Assembly: GCA_020047755.1 (NCBI GenBank)
Contig: JAIFNL010000043.1
Location: forward strand, 1-46,524
Length of the DNA: 46,524 nucleotides
DNA from: Bacteroidota bacterium
GTDB taxonomy: Bacteria; Bacteroidota; Bacteroidia; Bacteroidales; JAIFNL01
Reading direction: 5' to 3'
Part shown: piece after piece, positions 115 to 36,347 of the stretch
How the letters are laid out: the number at the start of each line of letters is the position of its first letter
Position numbering within the stretch: position 1 is the first letter of the stretch
The notes under the pieces: model-generated
Database searches by the model: none
The model's input: the letters and a program-made list of their open reading frames with translations, nothing else
What the model was told of the DNA's origin: nothing
Position numbers and translations under genes: made by a program

Positions 115-1074
115 ATGTTAAATACAACATATATAAAATATTTAGATCCGAAAAACGATTTAACTTTTCGTAAAATTTTTGGACAGCACCCTGAAATTAT
201 GAAAAGCTTTTTAAATTCGTTGTTGCCTTTGCACGAAGAGCAATTTATAACTCATTTGGTTTATGAAGATCCGGCTATGTTGCCGGAATTGCCTGAGTTG
301 AAGCACTCTATTGTAGATGTAAAATGCACCGATAATTTTGGAAGGCAATTTATAGTAGAAATGCAAATGTACTGGACAAGCTCTTTTAAAAACAGAATGT
401 TGTTCAATGCAGGCAAAGCTTATGTAAAACAGATAGATAAGGGACATAAATATTCCGAACTTTGTCCTGTTTACGGGCTTAGTTTGGTAAATGATATTTT
501 TTTGACTGACCCAAAGTACGCTACTAATTTTTACCATCATTATCGCTTGGCTCATCACGAAATACCACAAGAAGAAATTAAAGGAATTGAGCTCATTTTT
601 ATAGAGTTACCTAAGTTTGCAGTACAAAATTTTACTCAGAAAAAAATGCGCAATTTATGGCTTCGTTTTTTAACAGAAATTGACGAATCTACCAAAGAAG
701 TTTCGGACGATTTAACATCAATTGAAGCTATAAAATCGGCATTGGAATATCTTCAGGTTTCGGCTTTTACCAAAAATGAGCTTGAGTATTATGAAAAATA
801 CTGGGACAGAGTACGAGTAGAACGTGCTGCTATTGAAGAAGCTGTGAGTAAAATGAAAGAGGCTGAGATCAAAACCAAAGAAGCAGAAAGCAAAGCCCAA
901 GAGGCAGAAGAAAGAGAAAAAATAGAGCGCAACCAAAAGGAAGAGGCTCTGAATAAACTTCAAGCAGCAGTTCGGAAAATGAACGAACGTGGATTTTCTC
1001 TACACGAAATAGCTGAAAATCTAGGTCTTTTACTCGAAGAAATTCAAATTTTTATAGATAAAAAAATTGAATAA
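115..1074 (+). CDS. Rpn family / PD-(D/E)XK nuclease-like putative transposase protein
   Basis: This 319-residue protein resembles the Rpn/PDDEXK_2 family (often annotated 'putative transposase' or TIGR01784), whose studied members are DNA endonucleases that promote recombination. The N-terminus has the family hallmark DPKNDLTFRKIFG (residues 11-23). A restriction-endonuclease-type core follows: D68 in IVDVK, then E82 and Q84 in VEMQM, matching the family D...ExQ active site. Residues about 270-319 form a charged coiled coil followed by a short helix-turn segment (GFSLHEIAENLGL) typical of the C-terminus. No terminal repeats or transposase partner flank it, so it is probably a solitary gene rather than an active element. 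The family assignment is from motif recognition; its biological role here is unknown. Confidence 0.85.
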   Translation: MLNTTYIKYLDPKNDLTFRKIFGQHPEIMKSFLNSLLPLHEEQFITHLVYEDPAMLPELPELKHSIVDVKCTDNFGRQFIVEMQMYWTSSFKNRMLFNAGKAYVKQIDKGHKYSELCPVYGLSLVNDIFLTDPKYATNFYHHYRLAHHEIPQEEIKGIELIFIELPKFAVQNFTQKKMRNLWLRFLTEIDESTKEVSDDLTSIEAIKSALEYLQVSAFTKNELEYYEKYWDRVRVERAAIEEAVSKMKEAEIKTKEAESKAQEAEEREKIERNQKEEALNKLQAAVRKMNERGFSLHEIAENLGLLLEEIQIFIDKKIE

Positions 1075-1086
1075 ATAATTAGATTT

Positions 1087-2667
1087 ATGAAACCATTAAA
1101 AGTTGCTTTTTTTTCACTTGCTTTCTTTTTATTTTTTTGTGAAAATATTTTTTCACAAGAAATTAACCCCAATGGGTATAATCGATTCAATTATCCCAAT
1201 GGAAATATTATGAGCGAAGGCAAAATGAAAGATGGAAACCCCGAAGGATATTGGAAAAATTATTATCCAAACGGTCAGCTTAAATCAGAAGGAAATAGAA
1301 AGTCGAATATGCTCGATAGCTTGTGGGTTTTTTACAATGAAAAGGGCGATACTTTGAAGAAAATCAATTACACTTTAGGGAAAAAAGGTGGCTATTATTT
1401 TGTTTATCAAGAATCTAATGATACTTTAAAAAACTCACTTCTTTCAAAAGAAATGTTTATAAACGACAAACGAGAAGGAGTATCTTATTACTATTATTCG
1501 AATGGAAATTTACATAAAATTATAAATTATAAAGAAAATATGAAACATGGTGAAGCCAAAGAATACAAAGAAGACGGCGTAACCTTGAAAACAATTTTTA
1601 AATATCGTTATGATTTTTTGGCAAGCTCCGATGCGGTGAATCGTTATTCGCAAAGTGGAGAAAAGCAAGGAGTTTGGATAGATTTTCACCCCAATGGAAA
1701 AGTAAAAAGTCAGGTAAACTACAACAATGGCAAAATTACTGGGTTACTTAAAGAATACGATTCAAATGGAAAGCAAATTGTAGCCGAAAAATATCAAGAC
1801 GGACAAAAATTGGCAAAAGATTCTGTTCGTGTTGATGCTAAAGTTCATACCGAAACCTATCCCAATGGCACAGTAAAATCGACAGGAGCTTATCTTGATG
1901 GCAAGCCAATTGGCATTCATCGAACCTTTAAAGAAGATGGAACGTCTTCTATTGCAAATGTTTATACAAATGAAGGCATTTTAATGGCTTCGGGAATGCT
2001 CGATGCCGATGGAAAAAAACAAGGCAAATGGAGTTTCTATTTTGAAAGCGGAAAGCTCAAGAATGAAGGATTGTATTCGAGCAATATGAAAATAGGCGAG
2101 TGGATTTTTTATTTTGAAAGTGGGCAAATAGAGCAAAAAGGAAGCTACAAAGCTGGACTTTTGAGCGGTAAATGGTATTGGTACTACGAAACTGGCGAAC
2201 TTTTGCGCGAAGAAATATATGAAAAAGGCAAGCTAGAAGGCGATTTTGTAGAATATACAAAAGCCAAAGAAATTATAACTCAGGGAAAATACCTTGAAGG
2301 CGAAAAAACAGGAAAATGGTTTTATAATGTTGGCGACCAAACCGAAGAAGGAACTTACAGAACTGATTATAAAACAGGCAAATGGAAGCATTATTATCCT
2401 AATGGGAAATTAAAATACGAATGCAACTATGAGCTTGATAAAGAAAACGGAAAAGCTATTTTGTATTACGAAAATAAAAAAATAGAAGAGGAGAGATACT
2501 ATTCGATGGGTATTCCCGAACGAATTTGGCGCAAATATGACAAGGAAAGTGTTGAAATATTGACACTTGAATACGATAATGGCAAGTTGATAAAAATTGA
2601 CGGCAAAAAAGTAGAGGAAGATTTAAGTGAACCAAAAGAAGAATCCGAAACTCAAGAAAACCTATAA
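1087..2667 (+). CDS. Secreted MORN-repeat (YwqK-like) protein
   Basis: The 526-residue protein starts with a signal peptide (Lys-containing n-region, then a Phe/Leu-rich core to about residue 23), so it is exported. The rest is built of many copies of a motif of the form YPNG.(I/L)K.EG.Y..G...G.W..Y, the MORN/YwqK repeat. Examples begin near residues 35, 55, 200, 258, 310, 335 and 445. The repeats form beta-hairpin arrays. Databases often label such proteins 'toxin-antitoxin system YwqK family antitoxin', but no toxin is adjacent and that label should not be read as function. It begins 12 bases after the Rpn-like gene and 51 bases before ruvB. The C-terminus is acidic. Role unknown; a structural or envelope-associated protein is the likeliest reading. 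Confidence 0.85.
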   Translation: MKPLKVAFFSLAFFLFFCENIFSQEINPNGYNRFNYPNGNIMSEGKMKDGNPEGYWKNYYPNGQLKSEGNRKSNMLDSLWVFYNEKGDTLKKINYTLGKKGGYYFVYQESNDTLKNSLLSKEMFINDKREGVSYYYYSNGNLHKIINYKENMKHGEAKEYKEDGVTLKTIFKYRYDFLASSDAVNRYSQSGEKQGVWIDFHPNGKVKSQVNYNNGKITGLLKEYDSNGKQIVAEKYQDGQKLAKDSVRVDAKVHTETYPNGTVKSTGAYLDGKPIGIHRTFKEDGTSSIANVYTNEGILMASGMLDADGKKQGKWSFYFESGKLKNEGLYSSNMKIGEWIFYFESGQIEQKGSYKAGLLSGKWYWYYETGELLREEIYEKGKLEGDFVEYTKAKEIITQGKYLEGEKTGKWFYNVGDQTEEGTYRTDYKTGKWKHYYPNGKLKYECNYELDKENGKAILYYENKKIEEERYYSMGIPERIWRKYDKESVEILTLEYDNGKLIKIDGKKVEEDLSEPKEESETQENL

Positions 2668-2718
2668 AGAACTTAAAAGCAACATTTTTTATCAGAAAAT
2701 GCCAATTAAAAAAAAACA

Positions 2719-3741
2719 ATGGAAGACAGACGATTTGATACAATAACCGCGGCTGAACAAGAACTAGAAAAAGAGTTAAGACCCAAACGATTTAGCGATT
2801 TTAAAGGGCAAGCAAAAATACTCGAAAACTTAACTATTTTTGTGAAAGCAGCAGTAATGCGTGGCGAAGCATTAGACCATGTGCTTTTGCACGGACCTCC
2901 AGGCTTGGGCAAAACCACTTTGGCGAATATTATAGCTAACGAATTGGGTGTAAATCTGAAACTTACATCGGGACCTGTACTCGACAAACCAGGCGACTTG
3001 GCGGGATTATTAACCAATCTCGATGAAAAAGACGTACTTTTTATTGATGAAATTCATCGCTTAAACCCTATTGTAGAAGAATATTTGTATTCGGCTATGG
3101 AGGATTATAAGATTGATATAATGATAGATAAAGGACCAAGCGCACGTTCCTTGCAGCTTACGCTCAATCCTTTTACTTTGATAGGCGCCACCACGCGTTC
3201 GGGAATGCTTACAAGCCCTTTGCGTGCACGTTTTGGAATTAAATCATTATTAGAATATTACGATATTCAAACTTTGGTAGGAATTGTAAAGCGTTCGGCT
3301 TACATTTTGAATGTGCCCATTGAAGAAAACGCAGCGATTGAAATATCGCGCCGAAGTCGCGGAACACCTCGTATTGCCAATGCTTTGCTTAGACGTGTGC
3401 GCGATTTTGCTCAAGTGAAAGGCAATGGAAAAATTGACCTCGAAATAGCTCGTTATGCCCTCGAAGCTTTGAGCATTGATAGGCACGGACTCGATGAGAT
3501 GGATAATAAAATATTACTTACAATTATTGATAAATTTAGCGGCGGACCTGTTGGTTTATCTACAATTGCAACAGCAGTAGGCGAGGACTCGGGCACAATT
3601 GAAGAAGTGTATGAACCTTTTTTGATAATGCAAGGTTTCATAAACCGAACTCCACGCGGACGCGAAGCTACCGAGCACGCTTATAAGCATTTAGGTAAAA
3701 TTTTTAATGCAAGACAAAAATCGTTATTTGAAAACAGTTAG
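2719..3741 (+). CDS. ruvB: Holliday junction branch migration helicase RuvB
   Basis: RuvB is the hexameric AAA+ motor that, with RuvA, drives branch migration of Holliday junctions in recombinational repair. The 340-residue protein is the usual length. Visible motifs are Walker [10 protein letters not shown] (59-67), Walker B with DEIHR (110-114), sensor 1 around [12 protein letters not shown] (about 153-164), the arginine finger in LRARFG just after it, and the C-terminal winged-helix region ending TPRGREAT. The ATG at 2719 gives the canonical short N-terminus followed by [11 protein letters not shown]. No ruvA or ruvC is in the window, so the gene stands apart from its partners, as is common in this phylum. 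Confidence 0.98.
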
Positions 3742-30677: not shown

Positions 30678-32345
30678 ATGATGATGAAATTAGCTAAAAA
30701 ACGTTGGCTTTATTTGAGCTTTATAGTTGCATTTTTATTTTTGAGTCTTTCTGCATTTCATTTTTATGACGATGACGATGATTTTGAAATATCAAAAAAT
30801 CTCGAAATATACTATACACTTATTCGCGAATTGAATATTTATTATGTGGATAAGCCTGATGTGGGAAAACTTATCACCGAAAATATTAATAATCTGCTCA
30901 AAGGGCTTGATCCTTATACTGTTTATATTCCCGAAACTCGAATTGAAGATTACAAAGTAATGTCAACTGGCGAGTACGGAGGAATTGGTGCATTGATAAG
31001 CATTCGTCAAGAAAAAGTGCTTGTTACTGGGTTGTACCAAAATTCGCCAGCTAGCGAAGTTGGTTTGCAAGTTGGCGATGAAATTTTAGAAATTTCGGGC
31101 AAAAAAATGCAAAAAATAACAATGGACGAAATTGGCGATTTGCTCAAAGGTGCAGCCAATACTGCACTTACACTCAAAGTGAGGCGTTTCAAAAATCCTG
31201 AAATTAAAACCTTTACACTGAGCCGCAAAGACATTAAAATTAAAAATGTGCCCTACTTTGATATGCTTGACGACAAGATTGGATATATTAAACTTACAGG
31301 TTTTACTTACGATGCTGCCCAAGAGGTCAATTCTGCTTTTGTAAAGCTTAAAGAGCAAGGAATGAAACATTTAGTTTTCGATTTGCGCGACAATCCGGGA
31401 GGATTACTTATTGAAGCGGTAAAAATTGTTAATTTATTTGTGAAAAAAAACGAGCTAGTTGTTAAAATTTTGGGCAGAGTAGAGCAAGGCAATTATAGTT
31501 TTAAAACAACCGATGAACCCATTGATACACTGATAAATGTGGTTGTATTGGTCAATAGTATGTCTGCTTCGGCTTCTGAAATTGTATCAGGAGCTTTGCA
31601 AGATTTAGATAGAGCCGTTATTTTGGGCGAGAAAACTTTTGGTAAAGGTTTAGTGCAAACTACGCGCCCTTTGATTTATAACGCGCAGCTTAAGCTAACT
31701 ACCGCAAAATATTACATTCCTAGTGGTAGGTGCATTCAGGCGCTCGACTATGCGCATCGCAACCCCGATGGCAGCGTAGGTAATATCCCCGATTCGCTCA
31801 TAAGCACCTTCAAAACCCGCAAGGGCAGGCTTGTGTACGATGGAGGCGGAGTTAGCCCCGATGTAAAAGTGCCTAGCGAAAAGGAAAGCACACTTGTTGA
31901 CCAATTACTAGAGCAGTATGTTTTATTTGACTTTGTAACCGCTTTTGTTTATGACAACAAGCCCACTTACGCTAATGTCGCTTCTATCGAGAATCAAACA
32001 AATTTGTTTGACGAATTTGTTCAATATGCTTTGAAACAAGGATTTAAGTATAAAACTAAGCGCGAGGAGCAATTAAGTAAACTCATAGAAATTGCAAAAG
32101 AAGAAAAGACATACAGCGATATAGAAAACGAAATAATCAGTTTGCAGCGAAAGCTCGAACATAATCTTGATAGAGATTTGCACAAATTTGAAAAAGAAAT
32201 TACCATACTTTTGCAAATCGACTTGGCTTCGCGTTTCTTTTATCAAGAAGGTGAAATCCAACAAATGCTTCGATACGATTCGCAGTTGAGCCAAGCCGTT
32301 GGACTTGTGGTTAATCAGCAGAAAATGAATGAAATACTCAATTAG
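30678..32345 (+). CDS. S41 family C-terminal processing peptidase (CtpA/Tsp-like)
   Basis: The 555-residue protein is a periplasmic serine protease with a membrane anchor/signal (residues 10-27) followed by an acidic DDDDDFE stretch. A PDZ domain occupies about 90-175, with GGIGALI and VGDEILEISG. The catalytic part shows IGYIKLTGF, DLRDNPGGLL and MSASASEIVSGALQDLDRA, with S298 as nucleophile, D309 and K323 (GEKTFGKG) as the dyad partners by analogy with Tsp. The C-terminal about 160 residues are helical. It cleaves C-termini of envelope proteins, and tail-specific substrate selection is typical. The gene ends with a terminator-like hairpin. Confidence 0.93.
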   Translation: MMMKLAKKRWLYLSFIVAFLFLSLSAFHFYDDDDDFEISKNLEIYYTLIRELNIYYVDKPDVGKLITENINNLLKGLDPYTVYIPETRIEDYKVMSTGEYGGIGALISIRQEKVLVTGLYQNSPASEVGLQVGDEILEISGKKMQKITMDEIGDLLKGAANTALTLKVRRFKNPEIKTFTLSRKDIKIKNVPYFDMLDDKIGYIKLTGFTYDAAQEVNSAFVKLKEQGMKHLVFDLRDNPGGLLIEAVKIVNLFVKKNELVVKILGRVEQGNYSFKTTDEPIDTLINVVVLVNSMSASASEIVSGALQDLDRAVILGEKTFGKGLVQTTRPLIYNAQLKLTTAKYYIPSGRCIQALDYAHRNPDGSVGNIPDSLISTFKTRKGRLVYDGGGVSPDVKVPSEKESTLVDQLLEQYVLFDFVTAFVYDNKPTYANVASIENQTNLFDEFVQYALKQGFKYKTKREEQLSKLIEIAKEEKTYSDIENEIISLQRKLEHNLDRDLHKFEKEITILLQIDLASRFFYQEGEIQQMLRYDSQLSQAVGLVVNQQKMNEILN

Positions 32346-32357
32346 TTTTGTTGCAAC

Positions 32358-32410
32358 AGTGGCTGGCGAAAAATATTTAAGATTATTTCGTTAGCCACTT
32401 TCAAACATTT
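32358..32410 (+). terminator. Terminator-like hairpin after the S41 peptidase
   Basis: AGTGGCTGGCGAAA (32358-32371) can pair with TTTCGTTAGCCACT (32386-32399) with two mismatches around a 14-base loop. A TCAAACATTTTTTTTT tract follows immediately. It is consistent with termination of the rnpA/yidD/peptidase transcription unit. Confidence 0.65.
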
Positions 32411-33214
32411 TTTTTTCAATTTTTTTCATCATTTAATTTGTTTTCGAGCATACTTTTTTTTGCCTAATTTTCAGATTACACGCCGCTTAACTTTTACTTT
32501 TCTTTTTTTTAGAAGTTCTACCAACAAATTTAAATTATAGTTTAACGCGCCTTTTTAATCAGAATACCTCCATTTCCGATTTTATGTAGTCGCTTTTTTT
32601 AGCTATTTTTTGTGTCTTTTTCTCTTTATATTAGGACTTGCCAACTTTTTATCAAAAGATTTTTTATTTTTTTTTATACCTATTTACTTTCCATGTTTAA
32701 AAAAAGTGAATTTAATGCCCCCTTTCGCCAAACAAAAATTATCTTAAAGTATAAATTTACTCATTTTCATAAAATATCATTCAAATAGGAAGTTAGGTAT
32801 CTATGCTAATTTTTTTGTGTGAAAAAAGGCAAAATATTAAAAAAATAGTAGAATTTATGAATTTGAGTTAAATTCATAAATAATTTTCGCACTCTATTTT
32901 TTCATTTTTAGAAAATATTTTTACGCTTATTTTGATTTTGAGCAAGCCTAAATGTTTGGAATTTAAAATAATTTTGATAGAATTTATCTCTTTTCCTATT
33001 TTTAATATCCGCATTTTTAATTGAATTTTATTTAATTAAAGTATCATAAATTGTATTAAATCAAAACTTTAAATTTTTTAATAAAGTAATACTTTAAATC
33101 AATAATAAGTATTTCAATAAAAATGGCTATTCCTACTTAAAGTATTTGTTTTTTTAATTTCGTTTTTACTAAATTTGTTTTATAATTAAGATTTAAATAA
33201 TTCAATTTAAATAT
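32411..33214. other. About 800-base gene-free AT-rich region
   Basis: No credible frame, tRNA or RNA gene was seen. What it does contain is four copies of the 9-mer TTAAAGTAT (32744-32752, 33036-33044, inverted at 33089-33097, 33137-33145) and the inverted repeat at 32853-32881. It is the longest gene-free stretch in the window. Confidence 0.7.
32853..32881. repeat. Perfect 12-bp inverted repeat
   Basis: ATTTATGAATTT (32853-32864) and AAATTCATAAAT (32870-32881) are perfect complementary arms around GAGTT. There is no long T-run directly after it on either strand, so it is a weaker terminator candidate; a protein-binding site is equally possible. Confidence 0.6.
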
Positions 33215-34318
33215 ATGAAAAATAGGATATTAATACTAGGTCTTTTGGTTTTAGCTTTGGCTATTGTAAAACTATTTTTTCACAACGTTGAAAAGCCTAT
33301 TGTTAACTATACAGTCAACAACACTTTTCCTGTTGTTTCTGGCGATACGTTAAGCATCGATTTTTATTTTGAGTCGGAACATAACTTAACTTTTTTTTCA
33401 TCGAAGGTTAGTTTAGGCGTGGAGATTTTAAACGAGGTAGTTGAATTTGGGAAAGGAAATAAAGCAGGAAATTTGAATTACTCTTTTGTGATTCCGCAAA
33501 ATTGTAGAAACGAAAATATGATGAACTTGCAATTTGAAATATCGAGCGAATTTGGTTCCGATGATGTTTATATTTCGGTGCCTGTTTACAATCCGCCTTA
33601 CATGGTAAGAATGGAATTAGACCAAGTAGATAATTTTGCCGAGGTTTCTGTTAAATCTTTTTTTAGCAGCAAAAACCTAATTATCGAAAATGATTTACTT
33701 GCCGAGCTTGACGAAACTTCTGGCTTTTCGGAATTTAAAGTTTACGAACTGCAAAATTTTAATTTAAACGATTATTTATACAAAGGTTCTCAAGGTACAA
33801 GTGTTGATAATTTTATTATCTCTAATTTGCTCGAAACTTCAAAAAAATTGGTTCGCGATGAAAAAAACTTAGCCACAGCAAGTCTATTTTCTATTTCGGA
33901 GTTGAATAGCGAAAGCCAAAACACAAAAGATGTTCGCAAGCCGATATTGAATGTTCACAAGAAATCTTCTATATCTAAAATTGCAACAAAAAAGGCAGTT
34001 ACTTCAAATTCTGAAAATTCTAAGGCAAACAATTCGAGCCTAGAAAAAAAGAATACCATTCCTGTTGCAAACATTAACCAGAAGCTTGAGACTACTGATT
34101 CAGACGAAATTGCAGCCAACTTATCGCTTATTGTAGCACACAAGGCGGAATTAATTTTGAGCAACCAGCCTGAAATAGACTCCAATGCAATTATTCATGC
34201 AAATAGGATTGAATTTATTGAAAATAAGCGATTAAATGACATTAAAATCGAGATTCAATTAGGACTTTCTGATATGAAAATGGAAGAGAATTACTTTTTA
34301 GACTCTAAGATAAAATAG
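33215..34318 (+). CDS. Unknown membrane-anchored protein
   Basis: The 367-residue protein has a single N-terminal hydrophobic segment (about 5-22; MKNRILILGLLVLALAIV), a likely membrane anchor with the rest outside the cytoplasm. Residues about 28-150 alternate short hydrophobic strands with SGD and PPYMV-type turns, resembling an immunoglobulin-like beta domain. Residues 170-260 are mixed, and 240-300 are Ser/Asn/Lys-rich and probably disordered; the last about 70 residues look helical. No recognisable family. It is the first gene after the long gene-free stretch and lies 108 bases before the SiaC-like gene in the same direction. Confidence 0.75.
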   Translation: MKNRILILGLLVLALAIVKLFFHNVEKPIVNYTVNNTFPVVSGDTLSIDFYFESEHNLTFFSSKVSLGVEILNEVVEFGKGNKAGNLNYSFVIPQNCRNENMMNLQFEISSEFGSDDVYISVPVYNPPYMVRMELDQVDNFAEVSVKSFFSSKNLIIENDLLAELDETSGFSEFKVYELQNFNLNDYLYKGSQGTSVDNFIISNLLETSKKLVRDEKNLATASLFSISELNSESQNTKDVRKPILNVHKKSSISKIATKKAVTSNSENSKANNSSLEKKNTIPVANINQKLETTDSDEIAANLSLIVAHKAELILSNQPEIDSNAIIHANRIEFIENKRLNDIKIEIQLGLSDMKMEENYFLDSKIK

Positions 34319-34426
34319 ATTTTGTTGTAATCAATATATTAATAAGTGTTTTTTTCTACAAAAAAATTAAAAAAACATACTCCAATGATAAAAGTAGGTA
34401 ATCATATAATTTATCAATTTAATGTT

Positions 34427-34810
34427 ATGAAACTTCTAAACTTGAAAGGAACAGCCGATACTCCTTCTGTGATTCTCGACCCGCAAAAGCATGAATTGAA
34501 ATTTTTAGGCAGATCGCTGCCTGAAGATTCGGCGGCGTTTTACAACCCCATTTTGGAGTGGCTAGATAGTTATGCTATTGACAATGAAGAAGATACTGTG
34601 GCTGTTTTTAAGCTCGATTATTTTAGTACTTCTAGTTCTAAAATGTTACTTTCTATTTTGTATAAACTCGAATCGATGAGTTTTTCAGGTACAAATGTGA
34701 AGGTACGTTGGTATTATCCTGAAGAAGATGATGATATTGAAGAGGCTGGCGCTGTTTATTCTGAATTGGTGGAGCTGCCTTTTGAACATTTAAGTTATTC
34801 ATTAGATTAA
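34427..34810 (+). CDS. SiaC family regulatory phosphoprotein (DUF1987)
   Basis: I start it at ATG 34427 (127 residues) because MKLLNLKGTADTPSVILD fits the family; two in-frame starts (GTG 34346, ATG 34385) would add 14 to 27 residues. The motifs PSVILDPQ, GRSLPEDSAAFYNPILEWLDSY (about 30-51) and the phospho-acceptor segment FKLDYFSTSSSKMLL (about 65-79) are hallmarks. In Pseudomonas, SiaC is phosphorylated by SiaB and dephosphorylated by SiaA, and unphosphorylated SiaC activates the diguanylate cyclase SiaD. No SiaA, SiaB or SiaD is present in this window, so its partners must be elsewhere or different. Confidence 0.85.
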   Translation: MKLLNLKGTADTPSVILDPQKHELKFLGRSLPEDSAAFYNPILEWLDSYAIDNEEDTVAVFKLDYFSTSSSKMLLSILYKLESMSFSGTNVKVRWYYPEEDDDIEEAGAVYSELVELPFEHLSYSLD

Positions 34811-34876
34811 TTATTTAATTAACATATTTTAAATATCTTATTTTAAAGGTAATATAAAATTTAATAATCTCTAAAA

Positions 34877-35239
34877 ATGGAAAAAAATATGACAAATAAC
34901 CTGTTTGCTATAACTTTTTTGGCACAAGAATCCAGTAATAACAATCAAAATATAGAAGCTATGAGATACGTAGAAAATTTAAGTATTGAGAAAAAAAATA
35001 CGCTATTTGAATTGATGCGCACTAGTAAAAGTTACAAAGTTCGCAAAAGAGCGCATGCCATATTATTAAGTTCTAAAAAATATAAAATCGACCAGTTGGC
35101 AAGTATTTTCGATGTAGATCGTGATACAATAGCCGATTGGCTTGGGAGGTGGGAAAAAGATGGAGTACTTGGCTTACAAGATGCTACACGTCCTGGCAGA
35201 CCGGCTTCCAAAGATGTGAGAGTAGAAGATTTTGATTAA
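34877..35239 (+). CDS. IS630-type helix-turn-helix DNA-binding-domain protein, paralog 1
   Basis: The 120-residue protein is only the N-terminal DNA-binding region of IS630-family transposases: an LMRTSKSYKVRKRAHAILL helix (about 46-64), QLASIFDVDRDTIADWLGRW (recognition helix, about 74-93) and the linker GLQDATRPGRP. No DDE catalytic domain follows; after GRP there are about 12 residues, mostly charged. The ATG at 34961 (92 residues) would start exactly like the paralog (MRYV versus MKYV) and is a strong alternative start. It probably acts as a regulator or DNA-binding protein rather than a transposase. Confidence 0.82.
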   Translation: MEKNMTNNLFAITFLAQESSNNNQNIEAMRYVENLSIEKKNTLFELMRTSKSYKVRKRAHAILLSSKKYKIDQLASIFDVDRDTIADWLGRWEKDGVLGLQDATRPGRPASKDVRVEDFD

Positions 35240-35336
35240 TTTTTTATTTTTTTATTTTATTTAATCAAGTTTTTTTTTATGTTTGCACTTTGATATTTTT
35301 CAGAAGAGTCGAATTTAAAAAAAAATGTTATAGACT

Positions 35337-35618
35337 ATGAAATATGTAAAATTATTAAAAGTTGCTGACCGTGAAGCATTGGATAACTTAATGCGCACAA
35401 GTAGTAATTTTAAAGTGAGATGTAGGGCACATTGTATTATTTTGAGCGCTAAAAAATACAGAATTGAAGACCTAGCTAATATCTTTGATGTTGATAGAGA
35501 CACAGTTAGCGGTTGGGTTACAAAATGGGAAGAGCTTGGAGTTGGTGGCTTACATGACGCAGCTCGTACAGGCAGACCTCGAAAAGCGAAGACTGACGAC
35601 GAAGCAAGTGATGAATAG
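35337..35618 (+). CDS. IS630-type helix-turn-helix DNA-binding-domain protein, paralog 2
   Basis: This 93-residue paralog of the preceding gene has the same layout: MRTSSNFKVRCRAHCIIL, DLANIFDVDRDTVSGWVTKW and GLHDAARTGRPRK, then an acidic tail TDDEASDE. It again lacks a catalytic domain. The two share the region from MRTS to GRP, and the recognition helices differ only slightly (IADW versus VSGW), suggesting related or identical target DNA. The gap from paralog 1 is 97 bases, and a strong terminator follows. Confidence 0.83.
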   Translation: MKYVKLLKVADREALDNLMRTSSNFKVRCRAHCIILSAKKYRIEDLANIFDVDRDTVSGWVTKWEELGVGGLHDAARTGRPRKAKTDDEASDE

Positions 35619-35631
35619 ATTTTCGTCATAC

Positions 35632-35680
35632 AATGGACAGTTGAGCTCAAAAAAAGAAGCTTAATTGTCCATTTTTTTTT
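35632..35680 (+). terminator. Strong terminator after the second HTH gene
   Basis: AATGGACA (35632-35639) pairs with TGTCCATT (35666-35673). The inner GTTGAGCT and AGCTTAAT extend the stem with two G-T pairs, and a T-run follows. It closes the plus-strand transcription unit before the convergent moaE gene. Confidence 0.8.
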
Positions 35681-35764
35681 ATTTATCTTATTGATTTTTA
35701 GAGTATTCTTTTGAAAAAATACTTCAAAAATTGAAGTTTTTGTGTGCCTTAAAGTTTAAGAGTA

Positions 35765-36193
35765 TTATTCTGTCCAAAAATAACTTCCATCGTCTAAAAG
35801 TTCTTTTTTCCAAATAGGAATTCGAGCTTTTATTAGATTTACACTTTCTTCGAGAGCTTTGAAGGCTTCGACTCTGTGCCCTGCACTAACTAGCACAAAA
35901 AGAGAGTTTTCGCCTGCTTTTACAACTCCTACGCTGTGTTTTATGCTTATTTTTTGAACATCTTTGTACTTTTCATAAATTTCCGAAATTATGCTTTTCA
36001 TTTCATTTTCTACCATTTCTGGATAAGCCGAGTAGTTAATTTCTACCACTTTTTTGTCGTTTACCACATCGTTGCGTACTGCGCCCAAAAAAAATGCGTG
36101 CCCACCTGTTGTTTTATTTTCGGAATGTATCGAAGTTATTGCATTAACAAGTTCGTTTCCTATTGCGCCTTGGCACAAAAAAATATTTTCCAT
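35765..36193 (-). CDS. moaE: Molybdopterin synthase catalytic subunit MoaE
   Basis: MoaE with MoaD converts precursor Z (cPMP) to molybdopterin by adding two sulfurs. The 142-residue protein has GGHAFFLGAVRND (about 31-43), the central YPEMVENEM region, and IKHSVGVVKAGENSLFVLVSAGHR (about 83-106), and ends with RIPIWKKELLDDGSYFW, with the conserved IWKKE containing active-site Lys. Upstream on the same strand are repeat copy C and then moaD and mobA. MoaA, MoaC and MoeA are not in the window. Confidence 0.96.
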   Translation of the reverse strand: MENIFLCQGAIGNELVNAITSIHSENKTTGGHAFFLGAVRNDVVNDKKVVEINYSAYPEMVENEMKSIISEIYEKYKDVQKISIKHSVGVVKAGENSLFVLVSAGHRVEAFKALEESVNLIKARIPIWKKELLDDGSYFWTE

Positions 36194-36251
36194 TTATCTA
36201 TTTTTTTTTGTTTATTATTTTAAAAAAAAGGTTTTTCTCTGATTTAAGGAA

Positions 36252-36347
36252 TGAACCAAAATTAATTGTATATTTAATTTGCAAAGTGCTTAAAAATAAG
36301 CAAATAGCAAAGCATTTGTTCAAAAATTTAATAGCACTAGTGCTTAA
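36252..36347 (-). repeat. Dispersed intergenic repeat, copy C
   Basis: Read on the minus strand it runs TTAAGCACTAGTGCTATT (with a perfect 12-bp palindrome AGCACTAGTGCT), TTTGCTATTTGCTTATTTTTAAGCA (hairpin TGCTTA/TAAGCA), then TTTGCAAATTAAATATACAA and TTAATTTTGGTTCA. TTTG and TAATTTTG are 17 bases apart, close to the phylum promoter consensus. It points at moaE, whose start is 58 bases further, and so separates moaE from moaD. Confidence 0.78.

Follow-up and report, generated by a model that had tools for sequence, protein, structure and literature searches.

In SETMAR/Hsmar1 and in the Pax proteins, a transposase-type DNA-binding domain has been kept for a host role. Both share this type of domain with the small proteins described here and match our model of their HTH structurally; they are eukaryotic, whereas our proteins are bacterial, consist of a single domain of ~90 aa, occur in multiple copies per genome and have a shared promoter design. 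TldR proteins, RNA-guided transcription factors of bacteria (PMC13418256), are likewise transposon-related. They are related to TnpB and thus to RNA-guided nucleases, whereas the solo HTH proteins carry a transposase HTH. In eukaryotes, transposase DNA-binding domains are known to have been reused as regulators (e.g. PMC10027918). In the open-access PMC papers searched, no case of a bacterial regulator made from a solo IS630 domain was found; the review PMC8987985 discusses factors of the Xre and RHH types, and IS630 is not mentioned in its main text.

The N-terminal domain of the IS630/Tc1-mariner transposases (ISY100 Tnp1-77; Tc3 and Mos1) shares with our proteins the first HTH and an AT-hook-like basic tail, and model comparison points to a matching region of the fold. 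In contrast to these transposases, the proteins of our locus contain neither a second HTH nor a DDE domain, and no convincing terminal repeats, of the one TIR type tried, were seen around their genes. Tnp1-77 of ISY100, a member of the IS630 family, comprises only the first HTH and the AT hook and binds the inverted repeat with a Kd of ~160 nM, its end binding being ~16 times weaker than that of a piece with the second HTH (PMC2170065).

The gene that precedes the HTH genes in our locus belongs to the family of SiaC, the partner-switch protein of Pseudomonas, whose T68 is the phosphorylated residue in P. aeruginosa (PMC7647112). The SiaABCD partner switch of P. aeruginosa (PMC7647112, PMC8457831) and our locus share the SiaC family and the T68 phosphosite; the siaC gene studied here differs in that no SiaA, SiaB or SiaD neighbour was seen.

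Organization of the siaC-HTH locus

The DNA analysed (the window) is a stretch of 46,524 nucleotides from a Bacteroidota bacterium and represents contig C160 of a draft genome of 4.64 Mb (G000), which is 98% complete. It was compared with two further genomes of the same genus, G001 and G002. The features of the locus, all on the plus strand, are the following.

33063..33177, plus: candidate promoter and control region for hyp367, siaC and HTH1 as one unit; conserved for the most part among the three genus genomes
33063-33074, plus: AAAACTTTAAAT, in the control region of the hyp367-siaC-HTH1 unit
33088-33099, plus: AATACTTTAAAT, in the same control region
33135-33148, plus: ACTTAAAGTATTTG, containing a -33-like TTTG 25 nt before the box
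33170-33177, plus: TAAATTTG, putative -7 box of the hyp367-siaC-HTH1 unit
33215..34318, plus: hyp367, fast-evolving hypothetical protein of 367 aa whose N-terminus reads as hydrophobic
34427..34810, plus: siaC paralogue, SiaC family phosphoprotein of 127 aa, T68 conserved (PF09345, E 2.4e-36)
34961..35239, plus: HTH1, solo IS630-type HTH and GRP protein of 92 aa (profile matches, alignment and conservation)
35278..35285, plus: TATGTTTG, which may be the -7 box of a promoter specific to HTH2 (alignment reading)
35337..35618, plus: HTH2, solo IS630-type HTH and GRP protein of 93 aa (profile matches and AlphaFold model)
35632..35681, plus: intrinsic terminator, hairpin at 35632-35673 followed by a T run (folding energy)

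An earlier note on this DNA had described a siaC gene followed by two IS630-HTH-only paralogues and a strong terminator. This layout is confirmed by the profile matches (PF09345, HTH_29 and NF033545) and by the folding energy of the hairpin, which lies directly 3' of HTH2 (-21.1 kcal/mol, z -5.6). An Rfam search of positions 32300-36300 gave no match.

The promoter-like block upstream of hyp367 contains the repeats AATACTTTAAAT and ACTTAAAGTATT, followed by the putative promoter TTTG-N21-TAAATTTG; the boxes were called with the promoter consensus TTTG / TAnnTTTG taken from PMC7366714. Conserved inverted and direct repeats are seen at the putative hyp367-siaC promoter (33063-33177). Each of the three genus genomes has hyp367 in front of siaC; its product is 66% identical to that of G000 in G002 and 39% in G001, and at E 0.1 it matches nothing in Pfam or NCBIfam. 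Alignment of the genus genomes reveals that the gap between siaC and HTH1 is unconserved, which fits co-transcription of the two genes. The conserved promoter at ~33135-33177 probably drives hyp367, siaC and HTH1 as one transcript; HTH2 would be expressed by read-through or from a weak promoter in front of it. The possible box TATGTTTG before HTH2 is conserved in G002 and was not seen in G001.

Start codon, domain content and fold of HTH1 and HTH2

HTH1 and HTH2 are paralogues with 52% identity. The ATG frame of HTH1 opens at 34877 (120 aa), and in G001 the corresponding frame opens merely 12 codons before MRYIENL. Since the first 28 codons of the frame from 34877 are unconserved in G002 and without counterpart in G001, position 34961 is likely to be the start of HTH1. 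The comparison with G001 and G002 therefore supports the start that the earlier note had proposed, which gives HTH1 92 aa.

An IS630-type N-terminal HTH is present in both proteins, as seen from the matches to HTH_29 (E 2.5e-11 for HTH1 and 2.5e-10 for HTH2). The NCBIfam IS630 profile NF033545, which spans 299 positions, is matched merely at 2-62 and 1-55 by the two proteins (E 7.5e-11 and 9.5e-11), each with a score of 42 bits against a cut-off of 100, that is, below the family threshold. When three full IS630 transposases were used as tblastn queries, the window was matched at HTH1 and HTH2 only, by transposase residues 1-85, and no DDE remnant was found in the window. A TIR profile built from 26 arms, the sole TIR type tried, reached its best score between 33.0 and 35.8 kb inside hyp367 (13.0, against a background maximum of 21.2).

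The AlphaFold model of HTH2 (mean pLDDT 81.7) consists of four helices, the last two of which form the HTH (residues 43-49 and 54-72). The model matches the DNA-binding domains of TnsB, Pax, Mos1 and SETMAR/Hsmar1 at Z 5.3-6.8, a level also reached by sigma region 4 and other HTH chains. A Foldseek search with the HTH model gave no match at E <= 0.001, and a sequence search of solved structures with the HTH gave nothing convincing (best E 0.021). RNA structure in the coding region of HTH1 is not striking (z -1.86).

Occurrence of solo HTH genes

A search of G000 with HTH2 returned HTH2, HTH1, an intact third gene (HTH3, C65:20243), a short degenerate copy on contig C68 and two further weak ones, at E 0.57 and 0.60. 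The C68 copy (L028:7642-7863; 73 aa, 50 bits) is a degenerate solo gene without the GRP tail. One of the two weak matches, on contig C142 (L029:245-1325), is by reading a split IS630-like gene with frames of 183 and 163 aa and a different HTH. Full-length IS630 elements carrying the HTH of the window proteins, which had been named in the earlier note as evidence against domestication, were found neither in the 98%-complete G000 draft nor in G001 and G002. HTH3 is flanked by response-regulator-like and sigma-factor-like genes (by reading) in all three genus genomes. The fourth solo gene, HTH4, adjoins a lysA-like gene in G001 and G002; the G000 contig ends within this lysA-like gene.

Among 99 relatives (G000 included), five have a match at E <= 1e-6, namely the three genus genomes, G036 and G017. 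The G017 match is weak, and one G017 match extends into a full transposase. G036 belongs to another family than the window's genus, and its genome is 92% complete. An order-wide family profile matched nine of 393 genomes at 1e-10. Matches of at least 89 bits occur in four of the 393, the three genus genomes and G036, while the best match in the other five is 62.5 bits; of these five, G017 was examined and G565, G673, G680 and G748 are known by score alone. G036 also carries an outlying solo copy (C50:6014, 58 bits) and, on C199, a transposase-like N-terminal gene of 131 aa (65 bits). At a threshold of 1e-12, four genomes of the phylum sample (395) have a match. Besides G000 these are G380, where the match is followed by DDE-like sequence in a different frame, and G240 and G317, known by score alone; the three score 61-82 bits. 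No relative was found among viral contigs (query A2) or phages (query HTH3), and plasmids (query HTH3) gave 49 records, all with less than 60% identity; of the 15 plasmid records listed, seven are annotated as IS630. A family tree of 91 columns did not resolve the origin of the solo genes or the place of G001 HTH2. The family appears to be transposase-derived and, among the genomes sampled, high-scoring in one genus and one further genome.

Conservation and selection

G001 and G002 keep the order S41 protease - hyp367 - siaC - HTH1 - second HTH - mobA - polA, and siaC-HTH1 is syntenic with its flanking genes in all three genus genomes. In G001 and G002, HTH1 has 92-98% identity; the G000-G002 pair has 98% amino acid identity with pN 0.011 and pS 0.152. 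Selection on the HTH codons, which the earlier note had suggested measuring, gave a dN/dS of 0.06-0.09 for HTH1. HTH2 has 92% amino acid identity between G000 and G002 (pN 0.040, pS 0.494, dN/dS 0.05) and 57% between G000 and G001 (dN/dS 0.15), and in G001 it ends before the GRP tail. Because HTH2 of G001 is diverged and shortened, the twin arrangement is fully conserved in just two of the three genus genomes. The proposed conservation of the twin genes in relatives thus holds for HTH1 in both other genus genomes and for HTH2 in G002, and fails for HTH2 in G001. HTH3 is 100% identical in amino acid sequence between G000 and G002 (pN 0.000, pS 0.168), with a dN/dS of 0.00-0.03, and HTH4 has a dN/dS of 0.10. 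Purifying selection acts on the retained HTH domain. Synteny, dN/dS and the lack of a parental IS630 in the genus genomes support the earlier suggestion that these are functional, domesticated genes rather than decaying transposons.

For the G000-G002 pair, pS is 0.40-0.68 in the neighbouring genes compared and 0.094, 0.221 and 0.349 in the reference genes rpsL, rpsG and part of fusA, respectively. HTH1 (34961-35239) combines a low synonymous divergence (pS 0.152) with a codon usage that is not ribosomal-like: the ribosomal-type codon index of HTH1 in G000 is below that of ~90% of background genes. The same index is high in four of five HTH3/HTH4 genes, and it separates ribosomal from background genes weakly (means 0.726 vs 0.693). 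High expression as the cause of the synonymous conservation could fit HTH3 and HTH4 and was rejected for HTH1 on the basis of its codon index.

Conserved sites upstream of the solo genes

The solo genes of G036 read as short stand-alone units, and seven of the nine have TTGSGTR exactly 39 nt before a TAnnTTYG box. Across the 92%-complete G036 genome, TTGSGTR-N32-TAnnTTYG has seven matches, all of them before solo genes, and the reversed control has none. The motif and the box (TTYG for TTTG) were defined on the upstreams first counted, with genome-wide counts and shuffles as the only safeguards: the 8-mer TTGGGTGT, found de novo, is common to five of seven G036 upstreams, which was reached in 0 of 1000 shuffles. 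Four of the seven promoters contain extra upstream sites, 21-24 nt apart, with the looser sequence [TC]TGSGTR. Gene f has no TTGSGTR site upstream, and the ninth solo gene, a tandem twin 63 nt behind gene h, has no site of its own. A second tandem solo-HTH pair, on G036 C50:5657-6256 (L055), has a promoter site before the first gene only. The string WTTGGGTGTT occurs at 18 places in G036 against 16 in the reversed control, and five of the 18 lie before solo genes; a box at 39 nt is present at four of the 18, all four before solo genes. In none of the seven G036 promoters is a TTTG present 22-28 nt before the box, whereas in the hyp367 promoter of the window it is located at 25 nt. TTGSGTR is absent from all 11 upstreams (211-300 nt) of transposase-type genes with a homologous domain.

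In the window's genus, ACTTGCGTAAAATTACTG-like sites are present upstream of HTH3 (one site) and HTH4 (two to three sites), at a fixed distance in all five HTH3/HTH4 promoters, which represent two sets of orthologues. In all five, CAGTA lies exactly 38 nt and TTGCGT 94-95 nt before the TAnnTTTG -7 box. Allowing at most one mismatch, a genus-site 15-mer is found before HTH3/HTH4 at its only place in G000, at three of three in G001 and at three of five in G002, against one match each in G001 and G002 for the reversed control; the two further G002 matches lie in coding sequence, inside recA-like and sulfatase-like genes. At up to two mismatches, the genus motif has 26 matches in G000 vs 12 in the reversed control, and the sole match with fewer than two mismatches is that before HTH3. 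This roughly two-fold excess in G000 is not taken as a sign of a wider regulon. Operator-like sites are thus conserved at the promoters of HTH3, HTH4 and seven of the nine G036 genes.

No TTGSGTR site is present at 32300-35800 of the window, nor in the 250 nt before HTH1 and HTH2 in G000, G001 or G002. The case for self-control therefore does not extend to HTH1 and HTH2 themselves. In the AT-rich genomes G000-G002, the TTGSGTR + 39 design has 12 scattered matches vs three in the reversed control, and none of the 12 is on a contig with a known solo gene.

The SiaC gene and its paralogues

SiaC of the window scores 124.5 bits against PF09345 (cut-off 24.5) and 72 bits against the SiaC equivalog profile, below its cut-off of 150. 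In the alignment with PDB 6kko/6k4f, T68 is kept and lies in an FSTSSSK segment. G000 contains 13 SiaC matches above the family cut-off, one of which is a fragment at a contig end. SiaC paralogues are thus expanded in G000; among 99 relatives (G000 included), 46 have the family, with up to 21 matches. The translations of those window ORFs that reach 80 aa or more were read by eye and showed no SiaA, SiaB or SiaD. Their absence, stated in the earlier note, thus holds for the window as read and does not extend to the genome, in which SiaA-like and SiaB-family genes adjoin other SiaC copies on C209 and C259 and a SiaB-family gene is located beside SiaC on C65. On C29 (L024:8533-10041), a protein of 502 aa carries a SiaC domain behind two SiaB-family (DUF6272) domains, forming a kinase-kinase-substrate chain.

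The link between SiaC and a solo HTH gene was seen in the window's genus only. No SiaC turned up when the surroundings of G036 solo genes (eight stretches, 77 kb) were searched in six frames, so that the SiaC-HTH neighbourhood, for which a survey had been suggested, is borne out by all three genus genomes and by none of these stretches. The window SiaC is an ordinary orphan paralogue. A functional link of HTH1 and HTH2 to SiaC phosphorylation may exist.

Proposed role and alternative explanations

From the comparisons above, we consider it quite probable that the solo HTH genes form a domesticated, auto- and cross-regulated family of small DNA-binding regulators. The solo proteins would bind DNA in a sequence-specific manner and would control the promoters of their own family. 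In G036, only a few bases would separate the putative site from the -33 region that follows it, in a single fixed phase. This fixed phase, together with the lack of TTTG at -33, favours positive control over plain occlusion. The missing TTTG is weak evidence for activation, since the -33 motif is not found in all Bacteroidetes; a -33 element could not be identified in Flavobacterium johnsoniae (PMC7366714). Tandem sites spaced by two helical turns would help a solo domain that binds single sites weakly. VDRDT, at the start of the recognition helix, is identical in HTH1 to HTH4, suggesting that HTH1 and HTH2 may act on the HTH3/HTH4 sites, and cross-control of HTH3 and HTH4 by the window twins is conceivable. 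Because TTGSGTR-39-TAnnTTYG was found in G036 only at the family's own promoters, we propose, as a tentative extension on which we would not yet rely, a bacterial family of transposase-derived mini-regulators acting in a closed circuit, with the twins as a branch recruited into a SiaC transcription unit. Such a circuit may hold with or without targets outside the family.

The synonymous conservation of HTH1 and HTH3, which is near that of ribosomal protein genes, and the high codon index of most HTH3/HTH4 genes would also fit an abundant nucleoid-associated protein, with HTH1 and HTH3 coating DNA at low specificity. We regard this as unlikely: the codon index discriminates weakly and places HTH1 of G000 below ~90% of background genes, and the upstream sites of the family look sequence-specific. 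It is also improbable that the solo domains are transposition repressors, which would block invading IS630 elements by occupying their ends or promoters, much as a truncated transposase acts as a competitor. The genus site does resemble the ends of IS630 elements that share the HTH domain, both in register and in orientation; the consensus TAAGTACTTAAGCAAAATTAATTA of these ends rests on 13 elements (26 arms), some of which come from the same genome. Scored against the TAAGTACTTAAGCAAAATTAATTA profile, the five genus sites beginning ACTTGCGTAAAATTA are equalled by 35 to 195 of 426,198 positions of their own genomes, but the other three of the eight sites by 244 to 3,034 of 426,198, and once the registers tried are taken into account the likeness is suggestive only. 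Moreover, the genus genomes yielded no full IS630 whose domain is cognate, and all 11 transposase-type gene upstreams looked at lack the TTGSGT core. The idea that the operators are mere relic IS630 ends was rejected, the likeness being suggestive only and the TTGSGT core being absent before transposase genes.

A switch in which SiaC binds and controls HTH1 depending on T68 phosphorylation would make sense of the adjacency of siaC and HTH1 in all three genus genomes and of the retained T68 and STSSSK segment, and SiaC acts in a partner switch in Pseudomonas (PMC7647112). Against such coupling, to which we give little probability, stand the lack of SiaC in the G036 stretches searched around solo genes, the distance of ~13 kb between HTH3 and the SiaC gene on its contig, and the location of the 12 other G000 SiaC matches away from HTH1. 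That the window genes are decaying IS630 fragments, or the first ORFs of two-ORF elements, is very improbable. Related elements are split into two frames, and HTH2 of G001 and the C68 copy are shortened; however, dN/dS is low, the neighbourhood is conserved, tblastn with three transposases found no DDE remnant in the window and HTH2 is followed by its own terminator. For HTH1, the decay reading is already contradicted.

With a family of small regulators as the preferred reading, the main interest of the locus is the solo HTH family rather than SiaC. With site and promoter at a fixed spacing, both the binding site and the mode of control can be tested directly, and the work on ISY100 supplies an assay. 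A short 'transposase' ORF in a metagenome bin need not be debris and can be a stable gene.
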